Shown here one piece after another: positions 21,128 through 34,113 of a DNA stretch of 64,000 bases. The translations under genes were made by a program, and so were the position numbers. How positions within the stretch are numbered: the stretch's first letter is position 1; each line of letters starts with the position of its first letter. The DNA lies in assembly GCA_036784855.1 (NCBI GenBank), contig JAZDSV010000007.1:248001-312000 (forward strand). Direction: 5' to 3'. This stretch comes from Aphelidium insulamus. Its lineage: Eukaryota; Aphelidiomycota; Aphelidea; Aphelidiaceae. The notes beneath the pieces were generated by a model, which made no database searches, was not told where the DNA came from, and saw only the letters and a program-made list of their open reading frames with translations.

Positions 21128-22528
21128 ATGGCCTCCTTGTCGTCCGTGCGCCGCGGTCTTGCCACGCAGGCTGCCACGCCGCCCCGCTCCTTTCTGGCAC
21201 ACATGCCTGCCCTGGGGGTGTGACTGGCTTTCTTGACTAGTCTCTGCGTATCATGAATATGCTCCTCGTAGGCACCGTTCCAGGGCACAAAGTACGCTGG
21301 CCGCTACACGGTCACGCTTATTCCCGGTGCGTGGCGCGTAATGCTTGAGCTTCACGTACATTCATATGCATACAAAACTTGTGCAGGTGATGGCATTGGA
21401 CCGGAGCTAGCCGACTCGGTCAAGGCCGTCTTCCACGCCGCCAACGCGCCCGTGGAATTCGAAGAGTTTCGCCAGGTTACCGGCGCCAAGAAGGGCAAGG
21501 AGGGCGACCAGGCCATGAAGGCTGCCATCGACTCACTGCGCCGCAACAAGGTTGGCCTGAAGGGTGCGTGTGGAATGTGCATTCTATTACGCCTTTGCTG
21601 ACAGGTCACAGGCATCTTGTACACGCCGGTGGAAAAGTTTGGCGCCACTTCACTCAACGTGTCCATGCGCAAGGATCTGGACATCTACGCGTCGGTGGCG
21701 CTGATAAAGAATGTGCCCGGCTTGAAGTCGCGCCACAACAATGTCGACTTTGCCATCATTCGCGAGAACACCGAGGGCGAGTACAGCGGCATGGAGCATC
21801 AGGTGTGCATCGATTATAGTTCTACGCTACATTCTGTTTTACATCATGAACTAAACACAAGTGCAGTCGTACCCCGGCGTGGTAGAGTCGCTCAAGGTGA
21901 TTACGCGGGCCAAGTCGGAGCGCATTGCCCGTTTTGCCTTTGATTTCGCGCTGAAGAACGGCCGCAAGAAGGTGACCTGCGTGCACAAGGCCAACATCAT
22001 GAAGCTGGCTGATGGTCTATTCCTGAACACGTGCCGTGACGTGGCCAAGCTGTACGAGAGCTCCGGCATAAAGTTCCAGGACATGATTGTGGACAACACG
22101 GCCATGCAGCTTGTGGCCAACCCGCAGCAGTTTGACGTGATGGTCATGCCCAACTTGTACGGCTCCATCGTGAGCAACGTTGGCGCGGCGCTGGTGGGCG
22201 GTCCGGGCATTATTCCTGGCGCAAATTTGGGTCGCGAGTACGCCATGTTTGAGCCGGTATGCATCGTTTGTGTGCTTGTTATGGTGCTGAATGTAATTAG
22301 GGCTGTCGACATGTTGGCAAGGACTTGGAGGGGCGCAACATGGCCAACCCGGTCAGCATGCTCATGTCGGGCGTGATGTTGCTGCGTCACCTCGGTCTGG
22401 AGAGATTCGCCAACCCGATTGCCGATGCTGTGCTGGACGTTATCAAGGAGGGCAAGGTGGTGACTGCGGACTGTGGTGGCAAGTCCAGCACCACGGACTT
22501 TACCGACGCCGTGGTGTCTCGACTATGA
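21128..22528 (+). CDS. IDH3B: Mitochondrial NAD-isocitrate dehydrogenase, regulatory-type subunit
   Basis: Subunit of the mitochondrial TCA-cycle enzyme that oxidatively decarboxylates isocitrate. Exon 1 (21128-21217) encodes a presequence ([13 protein letters not shown]). Later exons give [82 protein letters not shown] and [16 protein letters not shown]. The nucleotide region reads [15 protein letters not shown] rather than HGxAPDIAG, which is the pattern of regulatory subunits (yeast IDH1, animal IDH3B/G). All introns are GT-AG and 50-70 bp. The gene symbol is by type; orthology to B versus G is not resolved. Confidence 0.9.
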
Positions 22529-22600: not shown

Positions 22601-25600
22601 TTACACTCGGCGCAGACCCATCTGCTCCAATATGGCGACAAAGGAATGGTTGGGCTTCAGTAGGTCCAGCTTGCCAAATACACGTTTGCGCACAGTTGCC
22701 TTGTCGTTGCACTGACGCCGCTCGTCTTGGATCTGGCGTAGCTCGGTGCAGAACTGTCGGCACACCGGACAGCACGATGCTGGGTCATAGGAGCTTTTTT
22801 TCTTGGCGGCGGGAGCAGCAGCACCGTTTCCCGGCAATAGGTTGGCATCAGCCAAGTTTTCCTTATGTGGGTCATGGCTGAGAGAGGCCAAATCTTGGCC
22901 AGAATCGGTATCTGTCTGTTGTATCTCTTTGTCCTTGTCGTCCGAGGCCATGCTCCACACCATGTCAAACAGGCAGCTTCGACAAAAAGTGTGGCCACCA
23001 CCACAACTGAGAGACACGGGGAATTCCTTCGATGTGCCATCAGGTGCCGCGGAACCGGCCAGTTCCTGACAGATCGGACAGGCAAAGTGTTCGCTGACCT
23101 GATGGAAAAAGTCCATCATGGTGTGGATGGCGGAGGCGGCGCCCAGTTTGTTCTGCTGACTGATATGTTCCATGAGTGACTGCCAGTGCGGAGCATTCAG
23201 CAGATCTGCGTCAATCATCTGCAGGTAGTCGGGCGGCAGAACGAATCCGGTAGTTTTGCTTATGGCTGCGATTTCGTCAGGTACGCTATCAGCTTGTGAG
23301 TCATCTTTGTGACGTTTATTACTGCCATGCTGGTCATCGTCTTTCGAGAGTGAGCGTTTCGCTACCTTTTCACCCAGTTGCTTTCTTCGGACATCGTCCA
23401 GCGATGTTCCTTCTGGGGTAATTAAACGGCTTAACCCAGGACGATTTTTCGCCCATTCTGCCCACTCTTCCGTCCATGGAGCCGGGCTCGGGTCATCCCG
23501 GCGAAACAGGAACCTCTTTAACATTAAATAAGTCACGTATTGACGATGGCGCCTTACCCAAACTTTGAAGCCGCTGTATGAGCTCTCTTCCGACCAATAA
23601 CGCACGAGTTTGTACACACCGTCGTATCTGCAACCAAGCTTCGGGGCATATTTTGCATGGTCTGCACCGCGCAGCTTCATTTGATACGTGCGAACCACTC
23701 GCACTGCCAGACTCTTGTGCCAATCTTTGGCGGTGGCACCCACGACACTGTTTACCGGGGCATCACATGTCTTGGCTAGAGACAAGTTCATTGCCGTCAA
23801 TTCCTGGTCAAAGGTCTGCTTGGCGTTGCGCTTATTGCCAGATAGGTCACGACCGCCTGATCCGGTGTAAGTGAATTCCGTTCCGTTGTCTTCATCCTGC
23901 GCTGATTAGAAGCCAAGAGTACTAACACAAACTTACCTCGTCATAGCCTTTGGACATGCATATGCTTACGGCACCACCAGTTTTCGCTGAACCGCATATT
24001 CCACCCACAGGTGCCCGATGAACTCCACTCTCGGCAGCCTTTGACTTAGGTAATAAATGACTAAACTACGAAGTACCTGAATGCGAAAGGCCCAATTAGT
24101 CCCAACTTCTATACCCGGAATAGCACCACGATGTGTGCCGTCAACTACGGTGCACTTTTTGGTCATGCCAATGCACGCAAACCCCTTGCCCCACTTTCTG
24201 CCGCTAGTGTTCGCCGAGGCCATCTTGGCTTTCTTTGACTGCTTGAAATCGACCTTCTCCCCAGGATTCACAATATCGTTTACATTGACACAGTAAGGGC
24301 AGTACCTATACTATTATATCAAATGTGGTGCTAAAATAACATACCAGTCATCTTCTGGCAGCGCCGTCAAGTCCACACATCGCAAATGGTACCAGCTCTG
24401 GCACTGATCGCAAACTATATCGTCTTTTTCTTCGGCTGTTTCATTACACATGCCACAGCCGCACTCTTTGCACTTAAAGGGGCGTTTGGTAGCAACCTTG
24501 CACATGTCACACAGCCATCCATCTATATGAGTTACAATGGCTATGTGCGAACAGTAATATACCTTGATCCATAGTTGTGGCTGTATCTGTCGGATCTTGA
24601 GCTGCTGCATTATCTGTAGTAACACGGGATCGAGTTGGAGGTGGGTTTGAGGTTAGCGCCGCAAACTCTCTGAACGGGTATATCTCCTCAGTTCCGTCGC
24701 TTCTTAATTCCAATCGAGTCGTTTTTGCCTGTCCCTTGGTATCCTTGCGTGCAATGTCTACAACGAGCGAAGATTCTCGTGCCTCCACTACAGACGCACG
24801 AAACCAGAATCCCACGTCACCAGGTTCGTCAAAGTTGTAGTTTACTAATAATTGCTGACCAGTTTCAAGCTCTTTAACGGATGTAATCGGCTCCTGCTCG
24901 ATTGGTTTTATGCGTACGGTATCTCTTAGCACCACCGGATTCTCGTCAGGGTAATCGCTATATTGGCACTGCAAGTAATAATCAGTACATGCCGTACATC
25001 AAGATAAGCACGTGAACTTGCCTCAATTTTGAATGGCGAATGCGATATTGCCAGAACCTTGGCCTCAAAGTACGCGCTTACTTCTGGATCAAGTACTTCC
25101 ACCAGATCGCCGGCTTTAACATTACCCACATCGGGAAGCAGTACTTCCTGCTCCACATTCTTGTTAAAACTTACATCAACTGTCTCTTCTTCTACATCTG
25201 GTTGCTTGTCGTGAACAACATTTGGCTGTAATGGCGGTGGTGAATGGATCTCTGGCGGCGGTGCTTGGCGCTGAAACAGCTGTATCGTGTCTAGAGGCCT
25301 GACGTCGTACTGGAACAGGCTGGAACCGTCCTCAAGCTATACGGATGATGAGGCACGCAACACCAGTATCTTTACAGACACACATACCTGCTTGCCCTTG
25401 AAGAGAAGGCGCGTCTGCGCTGCCGTGATGGAGGCATCATGGTCGGCATTGAGTGCAGTCACTATGGCCTTCCTGAACTGCAGACATATAGTGAATAAGA
25501 TGCATAGCGCCACTGATGTCACAGCCACTCACTTACCAGCTTCACGGACTCATCGCGGTCCACCTCTAACGGCAGACGAACGCTGGCCGCAGACTGTCGC

Positions 25601-25623
25601 GCCCATTGCACATACACTAGCAT
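22601..25623 (-). CDS. UHRF1: UHRF1-like protein A: UBL-Tudor-PHD-SRA-RING
   Basis: Putative E3 ligase that reads hemimethylated DNA and histone H3. Exon 1 (25623-25537), exon 2 (25477-25388) and exon 3 (25336-25022) encode the ubiquitin-like domain (LLFKGKQ then LEDGSSLFQYDV and DTIQLF) and the first Tudor (VEVLDPEVSAYFEAKVL). Exon 4, from 24968, completes it with YSDYPDENP and holds the second Tudor (LLVNYNFDEPGDVGFWFRA). The PHD follows: WLCDMCKV, CKECGCGMC, DIVCDQCQSWYHLRC. The linker KQSKKAKMAS leads to the SRA: GRKWGKGFACIGMTKKCT, IPGIEVGTNWAFRIQ, ESGVHRAPVGGI, FTYTGSGGRDLSGNKR (the NKR finger is intact), YAPKLGCRYDGVYK. The RING is FACPICQEL, CGGGHTFCRSC and CCPVC, with an unusually long loop between the second and last cysteine pairs. 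Intron 24969-25021 is GC-AG. Confidence 0.9.
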
Positions 25624-25934
25624 TGTGTAGAAGTTTTGGATTGTTGCGCTCTTTTGTTGCTCCGAAATGTCAGGCAGATATGTAGCTAAATACTATTTAC
25701 AATGCGCTACTTAAAGATTCAAACAGTAAATATTGTCTAGCCTACACTGCTGTATTTTTAGGATTAAACGCTGTCACAGCAAGAGGTTCCAATGTGAGAG
25801 CTACCTTGTATTTAAAGCCGGCAAAGCGTAATGTGCTACCTATGCTGCCGCTATACAGTATGTTAATAGAACATGTCACTGTGGCAGCTAGTGTAGTATG
25901 TCACAAACTGTACTATGCAAACTATAATTGGTAA
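25624..25934. other. Spacer between UHRF1-like A and B
   Basis: Promoter side of gene A and 3' side of gene B. No gene seen; some AT-rich sequence. Confidence 0.4.
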
Positions 25935-27450
25935 TTATGCCGCAGAAGACGCGGATGATGATTTTCGGCGGCGGCCCTTCGTGGATCTGTTCATAGTGCG
26001 AAGGGCGGCGCAATCCTGCCGACAAATTGGGCACGTGTTGTTGTCATATCTTGTGGCCCATTTGCGAATGCAATCTCGGTGGAATGCGTGTGCTCCTGCG
26101 CAGTCCAGCAGTACAACAGCAGAAGTCCTGGCCCCGGCTGCGGGAGTGTTTTGTACACCTAAATCATCCCAGCATATTCCACATGTGAGTGTCGTCGCAG
26201 TACTGGAATTCAGACGGCCTGAAAACAGTTCTCGCGATTTGCTGGTGCCTAATGGCAGGGCGACACAGCGCTCCGGCACCTGACCAGGATTTACAATATT
26301 GTTTTCGCAACGACAACCGGGGCAATACCAGTCCAAATGTTGTGCCGGCAGCGCCGTCAAGCCAATGCACTTCAAATGGAACCACTTCTGGCAGCGAACG
26401 TCGTCGCACAGTACATGCTCGCTGTCTTCCGTTTTGTGACACTTGCCGCAACCGCATTCATGGCACACTTCTCGCCGTTTTACCTTGCAAGAGTCGCAGA
26501 ACCAAATTGAAGTGTCTGCAGATCGAATTAATATCATGCAATAAAGTAAATACACCAGCATATGCACCATTCTTTTTGAGCAAAGCCTCATCAGAGAGAA
26601 AGTCGTTAAAGAAGTACATGTTGGCCTTCTTGGGACCGGGCGGCTGTAGCGCCAAATGTATCACAGTGGAGAATTCCTGTCGACCACTTGAGGCGTTGGG
26701 GTCCCGGACAATGCGAAATATTTCCAGCTTGACCTTCCCATCGTTGGCCGGGCTATTCACCTCTAGTACCTTGCCGCGATACCAGAAGCCGATCTTTGAT
26801 GGTTTCTCAAAGTTGTAGTTGACTAGAAGTTCGTCGCCGACTGCGAGTTGTGCGAGGGAAGTCACTTCACACAAGGCTCGCGGCCTAATTCGATCCATGT
26901 TCTACGTTATGTCAAAATGACTATCAGAACAGCAAATGTCTTACACGCAATAACGCTGGTGGTTCAGAAAATCCAATATACTTGACCTGAGCAAAGAATG
27001 GCTCGAATTTGATCTTGAGCACAGTCGATTCGAACCATGCTCCCATGGTCAGGTCAAGCGCCTCCACTGAATCGCCCTCGCGCACATTTTGAATGTACAT
27101 TGGCGGGTTTTCCGGTAGCTTGTCCATGGCTCGCACCAGCATTTGAACAATATTACGCTTCATGATGCCGTACCGGGCCAAAGTCTGGCCATCTTCCAGC
27201 TGCGTGACGATGCAAATAAGCAGATAAGATAAGCGGTACTACACATAAAAGTACGAACCTGCTTGCCACCAAATAAAAGGCGGACGCGCTCAGGAGCGAC
27301 ATTGGCAGCCTGTGCTGTTCGTTTTCGCAGCTGATGAGTCAGTAGAATATGTATTGTTGTGAATAGGTGGCACACCTCATCAACAAGCTGAGTGGGTTTG
27401 ACCAGCAATGGCAATTTGTCGATATTGGCACCTTGAACAAATACTATCAT
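25935..27450 (-). CDS. UHRF1-like protein B: UBL-Tudor-PHD-RING, no SRA
   Basis: Paralogue of gene A. The start at 27450 gives the ubiquitin-like strand MIVFVQGANIDKLP. Introns fall after VDE and after LLFGGKQ, the same sites and phase as in A; LEDGQTLARYGI follows. The first Tudor shows MGAWFESTVLKIKFEPFF, but the Y-x-D-Y-P element is changed to YIGFSEPP. The second Tudor shows LLVNYNFEKPSKIGFWYRG. The PHD is WFCDSCKVKRREVCHECGCGKC followed by VLCDDVRCQKWFHLKC and DWYCPGCRC. After NIVNPGQVP, where the SRA begins in gene A, there are only about 35 residues before a RING-H2 (LTCGICWDDL, HAFHRDCIRKW, CPICRQDC). The tail is basic and Ser-rich. It cannot bind DNA through an SRA, so it would be a histone-directed ligase if functional. 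Confidence 0.85.
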
Positions 27451-27484
27451 TTTCTTTTCACTGGAATCGCTGCGCAAACATACA

Positions 27485-28794
27485 TCAGTTACGCAAATGT
27501 GTGGGCATTGGCGCCAACCTGCCGCTCCTCAAATCAAGACAAACCATACCGACATTCTTGGCTGATGGTGACAGAGAGTTGGATGCTTCGCAGAGAGTCG
27601 GCGCCGTACATTCGCTTGCACTTGCACTGCTGGTTGTTTTCGGACGTTTTCGCTGTGATAGTGGGAGCGGCAATTCATCGGAAGAGCTTGTATTGATCAC
27701 GTCATCGTCGTCATTACCGGCAGTCTTGGCAGCATCGGCGCACATCACTGTGTCAAGCCACATTGCACTTTTGCGTCGCGGCGGCGGCGGAGTTATATCT
27801 CTGTGATGGTGATTCTCATCTGGAACGGACTCGACACTAGCTTCATCGTTGGAGTGGATGAGTATCGGCGATTCGGGAGAGCGGCCACCAAACATTGGCC
27901 GATGGTCACTGTCGCTGTCATCGAAACTGCTTTGTGCCTTTAGTGCTTCTCTGACTGAGAATTTGGCGAGTGGTGGCGGTGGCGGCGGCGTGGCATTGCG
28001 ACAAACAAGCAGCTCCACGCTAGAGAGAGCGGGGTGTACGCGTTGCACCACCGCACTGCACCACTGCCCCGCCTGTGTGACGTCGGAAAAGTTGTAGTTA
28101 ATCATCAGGTGGACCGAGAAGTGCAGGTCGTCGAATTGCGCTGGCTGACCACTTGATTTAAGCACGAGCCTGCGAGGATCCTGAACATGATATATCTATA
28201 TACTTTTCTGATGTGCATGCCACATAGCGCTACATACACTGGAAATGTATTGCGCGTCGCTGTGACACCCACTGCAATATCGCTGCAATTATCGTAAGTG
28301 GGCATTCCATGATAGATTCTGGCGCTGCTGCTTGCCTGCATGAGAAACGGCTTGAAGGACACTGTCAGAACGTCTGCGACCAACAACGCGTCGCTGACAA
28401 GATCAAACTCGTTTTCCACGGGGCTGGAAACCTCTGCCCAGACCGTTATCAGCCGGCCTTCTGTAATGCCGCACTTTGACAGGCTCTCCGAAGCCGGCAA
28501 CTAGCGGCATCAACATCAATATGGTATTGAAGCAAGCACACAAACGTCCCCGCACAAACCTGCTTGTCTTGAAAGACGAGACGCGCGCGATCCCATCGCC
28601 TCTCGCGGTCCAGTGAGCGCATGGAGGATACGGCTGCATCCAACAGCTGCATTGCAACAACCATTAGTTGCTGGGAGAAGTACAAAAGAAACGTCAGCGC
28701 AATGAGCTCTTGCCTCCCCCACAGTCTGCCGCAGATCCACGTGTACGCGGTGAAAGTGGAGGCTGTCGGACAGCTGCAGCCAAACATGCGGCAT
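27485..28794 (-). CDS. UHRF1-like protein C: truncated to UBL and Tudor parts
   Basis: Third paralogue. The ubiquitin-like domain starts MPHVWLQLSDSLHF. Its first intron (28671-28713) lies after VGE, the equivalent site to A, B and D, and is GC-AG (GCAAGA donor). The second lies after LVFQDKQ. Then LSKCGITEGRLITVWAEV and a diverged first Tudor (DLVSDALLVADVLTVSFKPF) without the canonical acidic-tyrosine element. The second Tudor is recognisable from LMINYNFSDVTQAGQWCSAV. From there the protein is low-complexity (Pro, Ser, Asp/His runs) and stops; PHD, SRA and RING are absent. It may be a dominant-negative reader, a decaying copy, or a protein with a new tail. Confidence 0.75.
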
Positions 28795-28895
28795 TTGGGC
28801 AATGCAATTCCACGCTCCGGATTGGCCGAGCGGCTCTGTGCTACTCTTTTTTTTTGAATGCTAAATATTCCACTCTTTCCGACTATTTCCGTAAA

Positions 28896-29765
28896 ATGTT
28901 GCCTCGACTGGTTCTGCTGTTCGTCTCGCCAATTGCACTCGGTGCTCTGGCATCTGATTTTAATCATCATGTTGCCTCTGTCTTCCATACCAATGATACA
29001 TCGCCATCCAAAATTGTTGGCGGTATAGACGCAGAGTACTCTCCGCGACAGTGGATGGCTGCAATGTTTATCGATGATTACTTTCTTTGCGCCGGCACGA
29101 TCATAGGCAATAATCGGTTGCTGACGGCAGCACGTACGTACTACTTATTTCTATGAGTGGTTGCCCAGCTTAATTGATGTATGAATTCAGATTGCGTCAA
29201 GGATTTCCCTGCGAAAAGAATGTCGGTTAAAGTACGAAATATTAAGCAACCCATAACAGTTGAACGCAAATTCATTCACAAAAAATTTTCTATCAAGAAC
29301 GGCAATATCCACTACGATGTTGCGGTTCTGTGGTTGAAAGGTGCACACAATATCCCAGCTTCAGATTACGTGAAACTCGGTTTCAGTAAACAGAAACAAA
29401 CCCCATATACAGCTGTGGTCCTTGGCTGGGGATACAAGTCGGAACAGACTGATATTAGCGGCAGTTTGCAGCAGCTAGACATCGCCATGCACAGTTATAG
29501 CTATTGCAAAAAGAAATGGGGAAAATTTTTCACGAATGAAATGATTTGTGGCGGAGGCGAGAAGGGGCAAGACACGTGTCGCGGAGATTCTGGTGGACCA
29601 TTGATTATGCCTATGGCACACCATAACGATAAGCCGGTACAAATTGGAATTGTTAGCTTTAGTGAGAAGCATTGCGGCAAAAACGGGCTCCCCTCTGGAT
29701 TCACTTCGGTGGTCAAAGTGCGCAATTGGATCCGGTACTATCGAAAACAGAAGCTATCAGAGTAA
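28896..29765 (+). CDS. Secreted trypsin-like (S1A) serine protease
   Basis: Signal peptide MLPRLVLLFVSPIALGALA, short propeptide, and the activation site KIVGGIDAEYSP. The catalytic histidine codon is split by intron 29134-29191 (phase 1): TAA-H-CVKD appears only after splicing. The aspartate is in HYDVAVLWL and the serine in CRGDSGGPL. An Asp six residues before the serine (QDTCRGDS) predicts cleavage after Arg/Lys. The C-terminus VKVRNWIRYY is the usual closing helix. It lies between two UHRF1-like genes on the opposite strand, 101 bp from the start of C. Confidence 0.9.
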
Positions 29766-29815
29766 TCATGTGCCTATAATAAATATTGATGCAGATAGTT
29801 CAAAAACTGTTCTAT

Positions 29816-32327
29816 TTAAGTCCTTTGTAGATGACGGAAAATGCGCTGAAGAACGATGTTGCACTTGAGGGTGTTGCAATATTCCGTGGCGTCAGTACCG
29901 GCTAACGACAGTTCGACACAAGGCCGGCGGCAAACCGGACAGCAAGATCCCGCGGAGTAGCTAATAGCATTACTTTGACTGGCTATTTGTGTTGAAGTGG
30001 CGGTTTGTCGTGACGAGGCGTGATATTGATTAGTGTTAGTGTTGTTGCGGTTTTTCTTCGTAGTTCTTATTAAATCCACCAAGCACTTGCGACAAAAATT
30101 GTGTCCGCCACCACAAGTAAGAGTGACTATCGCACCGGTCTCATTGCCGCCGACACGATCTAGGCAGATGGCGCAAGTAAAATGTGAGTTCACTCGGTGT
30201 ATAAGGTCGGCACGATCCACTTGTGTTGATAGAATGCGCCTCCAAAATTCAGAATTAGCCAAGTCGAGCGCGGCAAGAGACTTGATGCTTTCCAGCCAAT
30301 TTGAATGAGCTGTGCGAATAGACGCCGTCGGGTCTGGTAACAATGCGGGTCCACCGTTTCTGCGATAAAACCTGACATTTTTCATTTCATACTGTTGACT
30401 AGCGATAATACTTCTGGTGTCGCAGTGCGGTGGTGCCAACAGTTCTCCTAGTCCCGCTCGTCCATATGCCCAGCTGCGCCACTCCCTGGTCCATGGTGCA
30501 GCGACTTCATCTACCCGCCAGAAGAAGTACACCTGAATATAGTTAAAAGTCATCTACATAGCAATTTTAAATGATCGTTAATAACCTTTGAAGAATTTAA
30601 AGAGCTGGTTGAAAATCTATACAGTCCATCGTATCGATATCCATAACTCGGGGCAAAATTGCTTTGATATTTCTGTTTGTACGACCGCAGGACCCTCACG
30701 AGTGGCAAATCAACATTTTCCATATCGGGTTCGCGATCATGTAGCCAAGGGAAAACATCGCTCTGACTGACTGTATGCAAGACGAATGAATAGCCATCGT
30801 CATCACAAATCTGAATTTTAGCTCTAGTGCAGGAGATAGGTAACCTACGCTGTATTGATTGAACTCGCAGCACAAACTTGCGCAGCCAGAACGGGATAAA
30901 GTGTCGAAATCTTCGTGTAGCGAGGCGTGGATTCCAGATTGTGTCAATTGGTGGCGGAATGCAAAATGCATCCCCACAATAACGTCATCCACTGCCGTAG
31001 GATGCTTGGTTTGTGTAGTTATTCTGGCAACTGCTGCAAAAGTAGTCGGTATTGCGGCACTCTGGCCAGGGTTGACGATGTCGTTGGGATTAATGCAATA
31101 CCGGCAGTACCTGCAGTCAATTTAGATGAATGACGGAAGTGCACTTACGAACCAGTCACCATCGGGAATTTGGTGCATATTGACGCACGATAGGTGATAC
31201 CAGTACTCGCACTGACTGCACACTAAATCATCATTGTTCCACTTGGTTTGGCGGCATTCACCGCACCCACAGAGGTTGCATGTTGCCGGTCGTCGCTTTG
31301 CATTTTTGCATGCCTCACAAAGCCACGAACTGTCTAACTGGAACTTAAGGCGCGTGAAAACTTTACAATAAGCTACGAACCCACGCAATCTTGCTCGGTC
31401 ACAGCCGACTTGACACGTGCAAAGTACTCAAAGTCGTAAATGCGTGGATTGCCGCCGAGTTTGAGGCCGACGGTGACGTCGCAAATATCACAGTCAAGTC
31501 GGTCGTTTTTAATGTGCGGCCGAATAATTTGCATCGCGACTCTTCGACTATTTTGCACCACCTTTTGCACCACCGCGCGGTACCAGAATCCCAGACTCTT
31601 TGGATCGTCAAAATTGTAGTTTAGTAAAACTTCACGACCGGGCGGCAGATCCCGCATTGATGCCACGGGTGCGGAGGCAGCTGGCTTCAACAAAGATCTG
31701 TCCGTGATCTGTACTGTGAACTCTGGCCCGTAACCATCGTAGAGGACTGTGACGCAAAAGGGCCGCCACGACACAGCCTGTACAGTGGCCTCAAACCACG
31801 ACCCGTAGCCTTCCAGAGCGCCTTCAATGTACAACACCTCCAACCGGCTCCCTGCTGTCAGATCTGTCAAAAATTGTTGGCGGCGTCTTGATCTCTGGGA
31901 GATGTTGGAATTAGTTGACACCGCATTTGAGGATTCGGTTTCCTCTGGCGTCAACTGTGGGGTCACAATTGGAGCGAAAATAGCGTGCATTGTGTCCAGG
32001 GGCTGAATGCCATAGTGCGCAAGGCTCGGTACGTCGTCCTCCAGCTACACGTTTTGTGAGACGATCCCGGTACATACCGCCAACCTGTTTGCCTTTGAAT
32101 AGCAACCGTATGCGGTATTGCGATGCGTCTCCATTCGAAGCATTTGCATCTACGACGGAACTCCGCACATGTTGTCTGAACTGGAAGAACTCATCAGCCT
32201 GGACCATGGAACACACGCAAACTGCACTAACCTCGACAATAGCAGTGTACCGATCTACTTCCAGAGAGAATTCAGCATCGCCCTCGCTGATGCCAGGCCA
32301 CCCAGAGATAACCACAAATATCAGCAT
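29816..32327 (-). CDS. UHRF1-like protein D: all domains, diverged SRA
   Basis: Fourth paralogue. The ubiquitin-like part starts MLIFVVISGWPG; introns after IVE and after LLFKGKQ match those of A-C. Tudor 1: YGSWFEATVQAVSWRPF with VLYDGYGPEF. Tudor 2: VLLNYNFDDPKSLGFWYRAVV. PHD: SWLCEACKNAKRR, CNLCGCGEC, LVCSQCEYWYHLSC. The SRA N-terminal part is only partly alignable (VGMHFAFRHQLTQSGIHA corresponds to VGTNWAFRIQAAESGVHR in A). The GSGGRDLSGNKR block was not found; the C-terminal YGYRYDGLYRF and VYFFWRVDEVAAPWTREW are kept. RING: FTCAICLDR, CGGGHNFCRKC, CCPVCRRPC. Exon joins inside the SRA near 30850-30900 are uncertain, possibly a short GC-AG intron. Confidence 0.8.
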
Positions 32328-32748: not shown

Positions 32749-34113
32749 ATGACAGTTGAAATGCCGGCCAAGACACAGGTCATGACTAGCGACTCTGCAC
32801 CCAGCGACGAGAAGCTGGCCGTGTTCTTTGACCCGGCGCTGGAGCCAGTCAAGGAGCACGGAGACGATTTTATCTGGTCTCTGCGTGAGGAGCCGCATTT
32901 TTCTCGCCGGAAGGAGATTCTGAAAAAGTACCCCGAGGTCAGTGCCGTATACTCTTTCTAGTTTGTCTAAGTGGACGCTCAAATTACATAGATCCAGAAA
33001 TTGTTTGGCCCAGAGCCAATGTCCAAGTGGATTATTTTGGGGACGGTGGCACTGCAGCTAGCCGTAGCGTGGATGCTACGAGACTCGCTCTCTTTCATGT
33101 CGTGGAAGTTTTGGATACTCGCTTACGTCATTGGTGAGTTGACCTAGGTTTACCATTTATTACATTTAATTAATGCACATACATGTATAGGTGGGACTGC
33201 CAACCAGTCGCTCTTTTTGGCAATTCACGAGTTTTCACACAACCTGGGATTTAAATCTATACGCGCCAACAAACTGTTTTCGATTATGGTGTCCAATGTT
33301 CCAATTGCAGTTCCGTACGCAGCCTCCTTTAAGGTACATATAATAACGATAGATTTATATCTTGTGCCTGAGTTGAGTTTACAATAGCCGTACCATTTGG
33401 ACCACCACAAATACCAGGGTGTTGTCGGTGTGGACACTGATATTCCCAGCGAGATGGAGGCGCGCCTGTTCTCCAGCACTCCGGGCAAAATCTTTTTCTC
33501 CTTCTTTCAAATTGCATTCTACGCACTGCGCCCCGTGCTCACCTACCAGCAACCATTCACGTGGTATCATGTGTTGAATTTGGCATGGGTGCTGTCCGTG
33601 GATGCGCTGCTGTGGAAGTTTGCCGGACCGGGTGCATTGATTTATCTGCTGGCCAGCTCATTTCTTGCGGGATGTGGATTACACCCGTGTGCAGCGCACT
33701 TTATTGCTGAGCACTACGTATTCACCGGCGAATGGGAGACCTACAGCTACTATGGGATCTTGAATTTGTTTTGCTTCAACGTGGGGTGGGTGCTTGTTCT
33801 GTATATCTTCAGCGGATTAAATTTTTGCAGTTACCACAATGAGCATCACGATTTTCCCAACATTCCCGGCTCCCGCCTGCCCATCCTGCGCAAATTAGCT
33901 TCGGAATACTATGACAATCTACCGTACCATAAGTCCTGGCCACTTGTCACATACAAATTCATTACTGACAGCAACGTTGGGCTTTGGAACCGCGTCAAGC
34001 GCAAAGGAAACGTGCGCATGAAAATTGCCAAGAATGTGGCGCAAGAAGAGGCGGAAACCGAGTCACCGGCCGAGCAAGCAGAGCGCCTTGCCTCTCAGCG
34101 CAAACTTGCATAG
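32749..34113 (+). CDS. DEGS1: Sphingolipid delta-4 desaturase (DEGS type)
   Basis: Membrane di-iron enzyme that desaturates dihydroceramide to ceramide in the ER. N-terminal domain DDFIWSLREEPHFSRRKEIL and KKYPE joined to IQKLFGPEP. Three histidine boxes: HEFSHN, HLDHHKYQG and YHNEHHDFPN. FIAEHYVF and ETYSYYGILNL are also family-typical. A 45-bp GT-AG intron inside the last long frame (about 33783-33827) is in frame and stop-free; removing it gives FNVG-YHNEHHDF exactly as in the family, whereas retention inserts 15 hydrophobic residues in the catalytic site. The C-terminal tail is rich in Glu and Lys. Three further introns are GT-AG. Confidence 0.92.

Follow-up and report, generated by a model that had tools for sequence, protein, structure and literature searches.

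The stretch of DNA analyzed here (the window), 64,000 nucleotides (nt) at positions 248001-312000 of contig C139 from the aphelid Aphelidium insulamus, contains four paralogous genes related to UHRF1, denoted A to D below, all encoded on the minus strand between positions 32327 and 22601. In animals, UHRF1 helps to copy DNA methylation marks. Exons were chosen manually at splice sites (GT-AG or GC-AG) and the frame was then checked to be open from the ATG to the stop codon, which yields an open, spliced model for each of the four genes. The introns are 38-67 nt long, with GT donors apart from three GC donors, in intron 3 of A and introns 1 and 3 of C; the GC-AG introns in the window are located at 25021-24969 (A), 28713-28647 and 28335-28283 (both C).

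Gene A (22601-25623; 886 amino acids (aa); nine exons, 25623-25537, 25477-25388, 25336-25022, 24968-24563, 24522-24345, 24305-24077, 24038-23937, 23896-23558 and 23515-22601) is a canonical UHRF1 by its spliced model and by Pfam, which detects all five domains above the gathering scores and in the order by which UHRF1 is recognized: a ubiquitin-like domain (UBL, 5e-9), a tandem Tudor domain (TTD; PF12148, 3.5e-13, aa 132-241, positions 24738-25120), a PHD finger (9e-8), an SRA domain (PF02182, 9e-41, aa 418-590, positions 23492-24130) and a RING finger (PF13445, 1.2e-5, positions 22748-23080, the end being approximate). A homologue search started with A yields 155 matches, and the named proteins among the best 120, which were listed, are mostly animal UHRF1 and UHRF2; a phmmer comparison with a UHRF1 chain in PDB (12dl_BA) gives an E-value of 9.9e-111. 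The best match of A, with 44% identity over 61%, is P0001, a protein of 539 aa from ENA that consists of UBL, TTD, PHD and SRA and stops before any RING. The SRA of A, which is 68% identical to P0001 in this region, keeps RDLSGNKR, as part of the finger loop RDLSGNKRNAK (approximately 23851-23819), along with the V of HRAPV; the alignment also shows that A retains the residues Y, D, Y and T, which we take to form the 5-methylcytosine (5mC) pocket.

Gene B (25935-27450; 438 aa; five exons, 27450-27376, 27330-27259, 27199-26945, 26901-26568 and 26515-25935) combines UBL (6e-14), TTD (2e-14), PHD (2.5e-6) and RING-H2 (2e-8), and Pfam finds no SRA in this protein, in accordance with the spliced model and the introns; the PHD and the RING share one exon and are only about 42 aa apart. 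Gene D (29816-32327; 746 aa; seven exons, 32327-32232, 32180-32085, 32044-31381, 31333-31153, 31110-30849, 30810-30586 and 30532-29816) possesses all five domains, with the TTD (2e-10) and the SRA-like domain (PF02182, 1.2e-8, positions 30482-30995) above the gathering scores, and UBL (5e-5), RING (6e-5) and PHD (9e-4) below them. Alignment with A reveals that the SRA of D has diverged, such that RDLSG is replaced by SDVFP, NKRNAK and 22 residues downstream are absent, and the V of HRAPV is changed to H; the D, Y and T of the presumed 5mC pocket are replaced by C, L and H, respectively. When 8000 candidates were scored, the only match of D at E <= 1e-6 was P0001. Each of A, B and D retains a full set of zinc ligands in the RING, H taking the place of one C in B, and the three proteins have in common a C-x3-H spacing (CGGGH, CAGAH), which in A (CGGGH) is accompanied by a long insert; in the alignment, the two rows from animals and the two from fungi have C-x-H. 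The positions that we take to form the aromatic cage of the TTD hold aromatic residues in three of the proteins (A, B and D) and non-aromatic ones in C.

Gene C (27485-28794; 357 aa; five exons, 28794-28714, 28646-28560, 28500-28336, 28282-28238 and 28180-27485) encodes a diverged UBL and a TTD-like region followed by an acidic, serine-rich tail. The Pfam matches are sub-threshold (UBL, 0.03; TTD, 0.08-0.09), the first run having been made with a one-intron model of C and the second with the current one, and no PHD, SRA or RING is matched by Pfam at E <= 1. A profile-profile comparison with hhalign, by contrast to these weak scores, aligns C over 167 columns with the UBL and TTD regions from A, B, D and P0001, with a probability of 96.6% and E = 5.7e-10. 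An earlier model of C with a single 155-nt GC-AG intron was replaced by one in which two introns flank a 45-nt mini-exon in the Tudor region. The two-intron model is preferred because the mini-exon encodes exactly the 15 residues between the intron columns of A and B, so that the introns of C fall in the columns of the third introns of these two genes. Given the introns in identical columns and the profile match, C is judged to be a relative of UHRF1 by common descent; the same two observations speak against C as a chance open frame.

Comparison of the gene structures reveals extensive conservation of intron positions. Two introns in the UBL, at alignment columns 33 and 68, are present in phase 0 in all four genes. 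Further downstream, an intron at column 209 is shared by A and C and is GC-AG in both, so that the GC donor of this Tudor-domain intron is probably ancestral to the duplication; B and C share an intron at column 224, A, B and D one at columns 356-358 (phase 1), and A and D one at column 440 (phase 2). All four introns of C coincide with intron columns of A, B or D. Within the SRA, A and D have phase 0 introns at columns 567/568 and 675/682, the latter pair representing the same site, 11 residues before a common APW motif (residues counted by hand), and the third SRA intron of A (column 533) has no counterpart in D. The coincident positions therefore indicate that A-D derive by DNA-level duplication from one intron-bearing ancestor. 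The simplest reading of the domain compositions would be that this ancestor was a full-length, intron-rich UHRF1, from which the SRA disappeared in B, the finger in D and all that follows the TTD in C.

Phylogenetic analysis was performed with C left out, on 16 rows that include 13 of the best 120 listed homologues; an earlier tree contained 21 of these 120. In the 16-row tree, P0001 belongs to a group with A, B and D (support 100/99), within which A, B and D come together with support 82/88, and an unrooted split with support 100/100 divides the rows into eight that are animal or animal-like and eight others, namely, A, B, D, P0001 and four fungal or fungus-like ones. The affiliation of the genome itself was assessed by means of HSP90: in a tree with 53 rows, 52 of them from the best 120 listed matches, it belongs to a seven-row set with the aphelid Amoeboaphelidium (SH-aLRT 95). 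The TTD had raised the possibility that the genome is holozoan; this was rejected given that tree and the named proteins among these 120 HSP90 matches, which come mainly from chytrids and other early-diverging fungi, with a single aphelid. Two top-scoring HSP90 matches, P0121 and P0122, are named Phaseolus vulgaris and Vigna unguiculata, perhaps owing to contamination of those records, and were excluded from this tree.

Searches of the entire genome (17.95 Mb, 169 contigs) with the profiles PF02182 and PF12148 and with protein B found no further UHRF copies. The PF02182 search (E <= 0.001) produced two matches, both exons of A, and missed the SRA of D, which shows the limited reach of that search; PF12148 matched three times, within A, B and D; with protein B as the query there were 18 matches, of which eight fall inside the array, the other 10 being on different contigs and spanning roughly a single domain each. 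The best explanation of the locus includes a lineage-specific tandem expansion of UHRF1 in this aphelid. An earlier note on this DNA had described four minus-strand UHRF1-like paralogues, namely, A with all five domains, B without the SRA, C with the ubiquitin-like and Tudor parts only, and D with all parts and a diverged SRA, had placed two UBL introns at the same position and phase in all four, and had proposed tandem DNA duplication with stepwise, modular domain loss. The four-copy array is real and was described accurately in detail: the spliced models, the Pfam and profile matches and the shared introns bear out each of these points. The interpretation in the note is partly supported, in that duplication and modular loss are shown, and the subfunctionalised chromatin marking that it suggested, perhaps linked to DNA methylation, would be a further possibility.

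The array is interrupted between C and D by an unrelated gene on the opposite strand (28896-29765, plus), which encodes a trypsin-like serine protease (PF00089, 1.4e-27 in the second exon and 3.1e-4 in the first). This gene contains a GDSGGP motif and one likely intron, and its start resembles a signal peptide by eye. The array is flanked by an isocitrate/isopropylmalate dehydrogenase gene (21855-22376, plus), which follows A on its 3' side, and by a fatty acid desaturase gene (33388-34113, plus) located upstream of D.

A search of the genome for DNMT1, also suggested in the earlier note, identifies a locus on another contig (C1:998500-1008400) with the RFTS, BAH and methylase parts in this order; the piece from the BAH to the methylase matches DNMT1 chains in PDB. 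A CXXC domain (PF02008), which in animal-type DNMT1 lies between the RFTS and the BAH, was not found in the four DNMT1 fragments or in the whole genome, and none of 14 control genomes gave a signal either; the same holds for TET/JBP, for which the genome search found nothing and the controls gave no signal. The methylase profile PF00145 has four matches in the genome, confined to two loci, DNMT1 and a locus on C90 that we take from its motifs to be DNMT2-like, both matched stretches of which contain a stop, maybe because of introns; neither DNMT3 nor DNMT5 is seen in the whole genome at the sensitivity of PF00145. The genome further encodes a CDCA7-like protein with a zf-4CXXC_R1 domain (C64:176807-177187, E = 9.7e-28), along with a weaker second match (C97:545243-545500), and contains one Pre-SET match, which we infer to represent a histone H3K9 methylase. 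CDCA7 is a partner of HELLS in methylation maintenance. Together, DNMT1, the CDCA7-like gene and the Pre-SET match support the presence of a DNA-methylation gene set in the same genome as the array.

Taken together, these observations make it fairly probable, in our view, that the four genes have divided their labor, with A as the ancestral maintenance factor, B and D as readers of histone H3 with a RING that have been freed from 5mC sensing, and C as a relic or a regulator. Under this scheme, the SRA of A would read hemimethylated CpG and its TTD-PHD would read H3, and the RING, together with the UBL, would ubiquitylate H3, leading to the recruitment of the RFTS of DNMT1. B and D, which retain the TTD-PHD for H3 binding and a complete set of RING ligands, would have dispensed with 5mC sensing and could act on chromatin, or on UHRF1 or DNMT1, whatever the state of DNA methylation; most probably they would regulate or antagonize A, a role for which plant VIM5 offers a parallel. 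With neither aromatic cage nor RING, C might serve at best as a decoy or partner of the UBL type, or might be in the course of being lost. Human UHRF1 has been reported to require the finger loop for binding 5mC selectively, for its ligase activity on nucleosomes and for maintaining methylation, and in simulations base flipping by the human SRA is seemingly possible without it (PMC6816099). Given the loss of the finger and this requirement in the human protein, D should be unable to read hemimethylated CpG selectively.

Several observations weigh against this division of labor. Two SRA positions that presumably contact the DNA backbone, A-G in animals, are S-K in A. In the phylogeny, a clade of A and P0001 survives the test (p-AU 0.086) and would make B and D older; moreover, the long branches of B and D join each other in the tree, so that any order assigned to them would be tentative. 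The codon bias of D is weak (0.080) despite D being in the training set, and so is that of the long last exon of C (0.043 in frame compared to -0.043 and 0.030 out of frame). The CpG observed/expected (o/e) ratio of the window is 1.02, without bulk CpG depletion, and the median for 30 of the 79 reverse-transcriptase matches, which include several near-identical, that is, not independent, copies and were each taken with flanking DNA, is 0.97 (p 0.25 versus the window), so that CpG depletion as a proxy for 5mC is negative in general. Finally, nucleosome ligase activity of human UHRF1 depends on the finger loop, so that neither B nor D may be able to modify H3.

It could be argued that A is the only functional gene and that B, C and D are decaying duplicates that are open by chance. 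This is the reading to which the weak codon bias of D and of the last exon of C would lend themselves, as would the long branches of B, C and D (2.1, 7.7 and 3.2, respectively, against 0.76 for A in the tree with 21 homologues) and the lack of the cage and of most domains in C. Nevertheless, B, C and D are open across five to seven exons with consistent splice sites, in the face of 64-79% pairwise amino-acid divergence; the RING zinc ligands are complete in D and, with the single C to H change, in B; and the cage positions, as we assign them, are aromatic in both B and D. In-frame codon bias is 0.193 for A, 0.185 for B and 0.166 for exons 1-4 of C, the training set having contained A, B and D, whose values are therefore flattered, and not C; out of frame, exons 1-4 of C score -0.12 and -0.16, and the whole of C, at 0.086, lies above all 500 shuffles (mean -0.137, maximum -0.021). 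Judging by the protein alignments and gene models, frames that are open over five to nine exons at 21-36% pairwise identity argue against recent pseudogenes as well as against assembly copies. Thus, decay of all three copies appears unlikely.

Another possibility is that the organism lacks 5mC, in which case A-D would be unrelated to DNA methylation today and UHRF1 would serve in replication or repair only. Such a state would fit the CpG o/e, which is close to 1 in the window as it is in most of the transposable element (TE) loci examined, and would also fit the finding that the PF00145 search uncovers only DNMT1 and the DNMT2-like locus as well as the statement in a review that 5mC is near-undetectable in early-diverging fungi (PMC13297926). 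Against it stand the presence of DNMT1 with its RFTS, BAH and methylase parts, the SRA finger kept in A, and the CDCA7-like gene, a candidate for class I as defined in a survey of 180 species, according to which CDCA7 is encoded in none of the 17 species shown to lack 5mC (PMC10538959). Furthermore, three of the 30 TE loci (L021 and L031 on C113, L042 on C99) have a CpG o/e of 0.47-0.51 with a GC content of about 0.40 and a TpG/CpA ratio of 1.41-1.44, and could be methylated or foreign elements; three more are at 0.78-0.79. The GC content of the published A. insulamus assembly is given as 52.05% (PMC10608142). Altogether, an organism devoid of 5mC seems a distinctly unlikely background for this locus.

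A more elaborate proposal, for an organism that has DNMT1 and in which neither DNMT3 nor DNMT5 was detected, would cast B and D as establishment forms that ubiquitylate H3 at H3K9-methylated nucleosomes whatever the state of hemimethylation, whereupon DNMT1 would install new methylation, and A as the maintenance form; combined with it is the notion that UHRF1 already had the full UBL-TTD-PHD-SRA-RING architecture before animals and fungi diverged and that fungi lost the TTD. As a whole, this combination is speculative and strikes us as improbable. That A-D are assembly artefacts or collapsed alleles of a single gene, or, as the earlier note put its refuting case, one misassembled locus, is a practically negligible prospect: no point in its favor was found, the proteins are only 21-36% identical in pairs, the intron sets overlap yet differ, the trypsin-like gene lies between C and D, and nanopore and Illumina reads were combined in the published assembly (PMC10608142).

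We favor the proposed division of labor, in which A would remain the maintenance factor. UHRF1 links the reading of histones and of 5mC to ubiquitylation, and the need for each of these parts is still being studied (e.g., PMC7585203). At this locus, a complete gene has as its neighbors one that lacks the SRA, one with an SRA devoid of the finger and one that lacks the C-terminal half, so that the four represent a natural domain-deletion series. The 18-Mb genome has been assembled with nanopore reads (PMC10608142), and a zoospore expression study of A. insulamus has been published, in which 7708 of the 7802 described genes were detected (PMC11767097).

Among the known systems, animal UHRF1 and UHRF2 resemble A, with the same five domains in identical order, the NKR finger and, for the animal-named proteins near the top of the matches, about 35-37% identity over 81-86%. 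Unlike these proteins, A has a RING with C-x3-H spacing and a long insert, the DNMT1 partner is without a detected CXXC (a domain for which the controls gave no signal either), and the array holds four copies, of which all but A have absent or degenerate parts. Animal-like UHRF1 and DNMT1 are reported from the ichthyosporean Amoebidium and the filasterean Pigoraptor (PMC11244446), so that an animal-like UHRF1 was already known in unicellular Holozoa.

Fungal UHRF1 (Ambispora, Coemansia) shares with A the order UBL-PHD-SRA-RING and falls on the same side of the unrooted split. The difference lies in the TTD, which is present in A, B and D and is not detected by Pfam in P0009, P0066 and P0120, the named fungal proteins among the matches listed; in the aligned P0009 and P0120 there is no room for it. 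A reduced ('stripped-down') UHRF1 is also described in the fungal line, in the form of the UHRF1-like factor of DNMT5 from Cryptococcus (PMC13297926). That factor is paired with DNMT5, in contrast to the aphelid genome, where no DNMT5 is seen among the two loci matched by PF00145.

The statement in the earlier note that UHRF1 is normally single or a pair holds for mammals, which have two genes (PMC8594673), and not in general, since some animals are reported to have two to three copies (PMC9476566) and Arabidopsis six VIM genes (PMC8594673); therefore, expansion with domain loss has precedent. VIM1-6 resemble the array as a lineage-specific UHRF expansion with domain loss, in this case in VIM6, and VIM5 is reported to target MET1 for degradation (PMC8594673). 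The VIM proteins, however, are described as lacking the UBL and the TTD and carrying two RINGs, and VIM6 as having lost the PHD and the C-terminal RING (PMC8594673); in the array, it is the SRA that is gone from B and C, and the SRA finger from D.

No report of an aphelid UHRF1, of a fungal UHRF1 with a TTD or of a UHRF1 tandem array outside plants was found among the best-ranked literature results, which left most subscription journals uncovered. A UHRF1 from Amoeboaphelidium is not among the best 120 of the 155 matches of A, although HSP90 of this organism (P0142) is in the database, so that its absence is only suggested. A. insulamus is an algal parasitoid, and aphelids are the sister group of Fungi; the array now places a complete UHRF1 among them. 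Because the TTD is absent in the three named fungal proteins listed and, as reported, in the plant VIMs (PMC8594673), its presence in an aphelid bears on the timing of the link between histone methylation and maintenance methylation. The main surprise is a complete, TTD-bearing UHRF1 outside Holozoa, the known precedent for the expansion of the family being the plant VIM genes, and the domain architecture of this aphelid protein suggests that the complete UBL-TTD-PHD-SRA-RING form of UHRF1 predates the split of animals and fungi.

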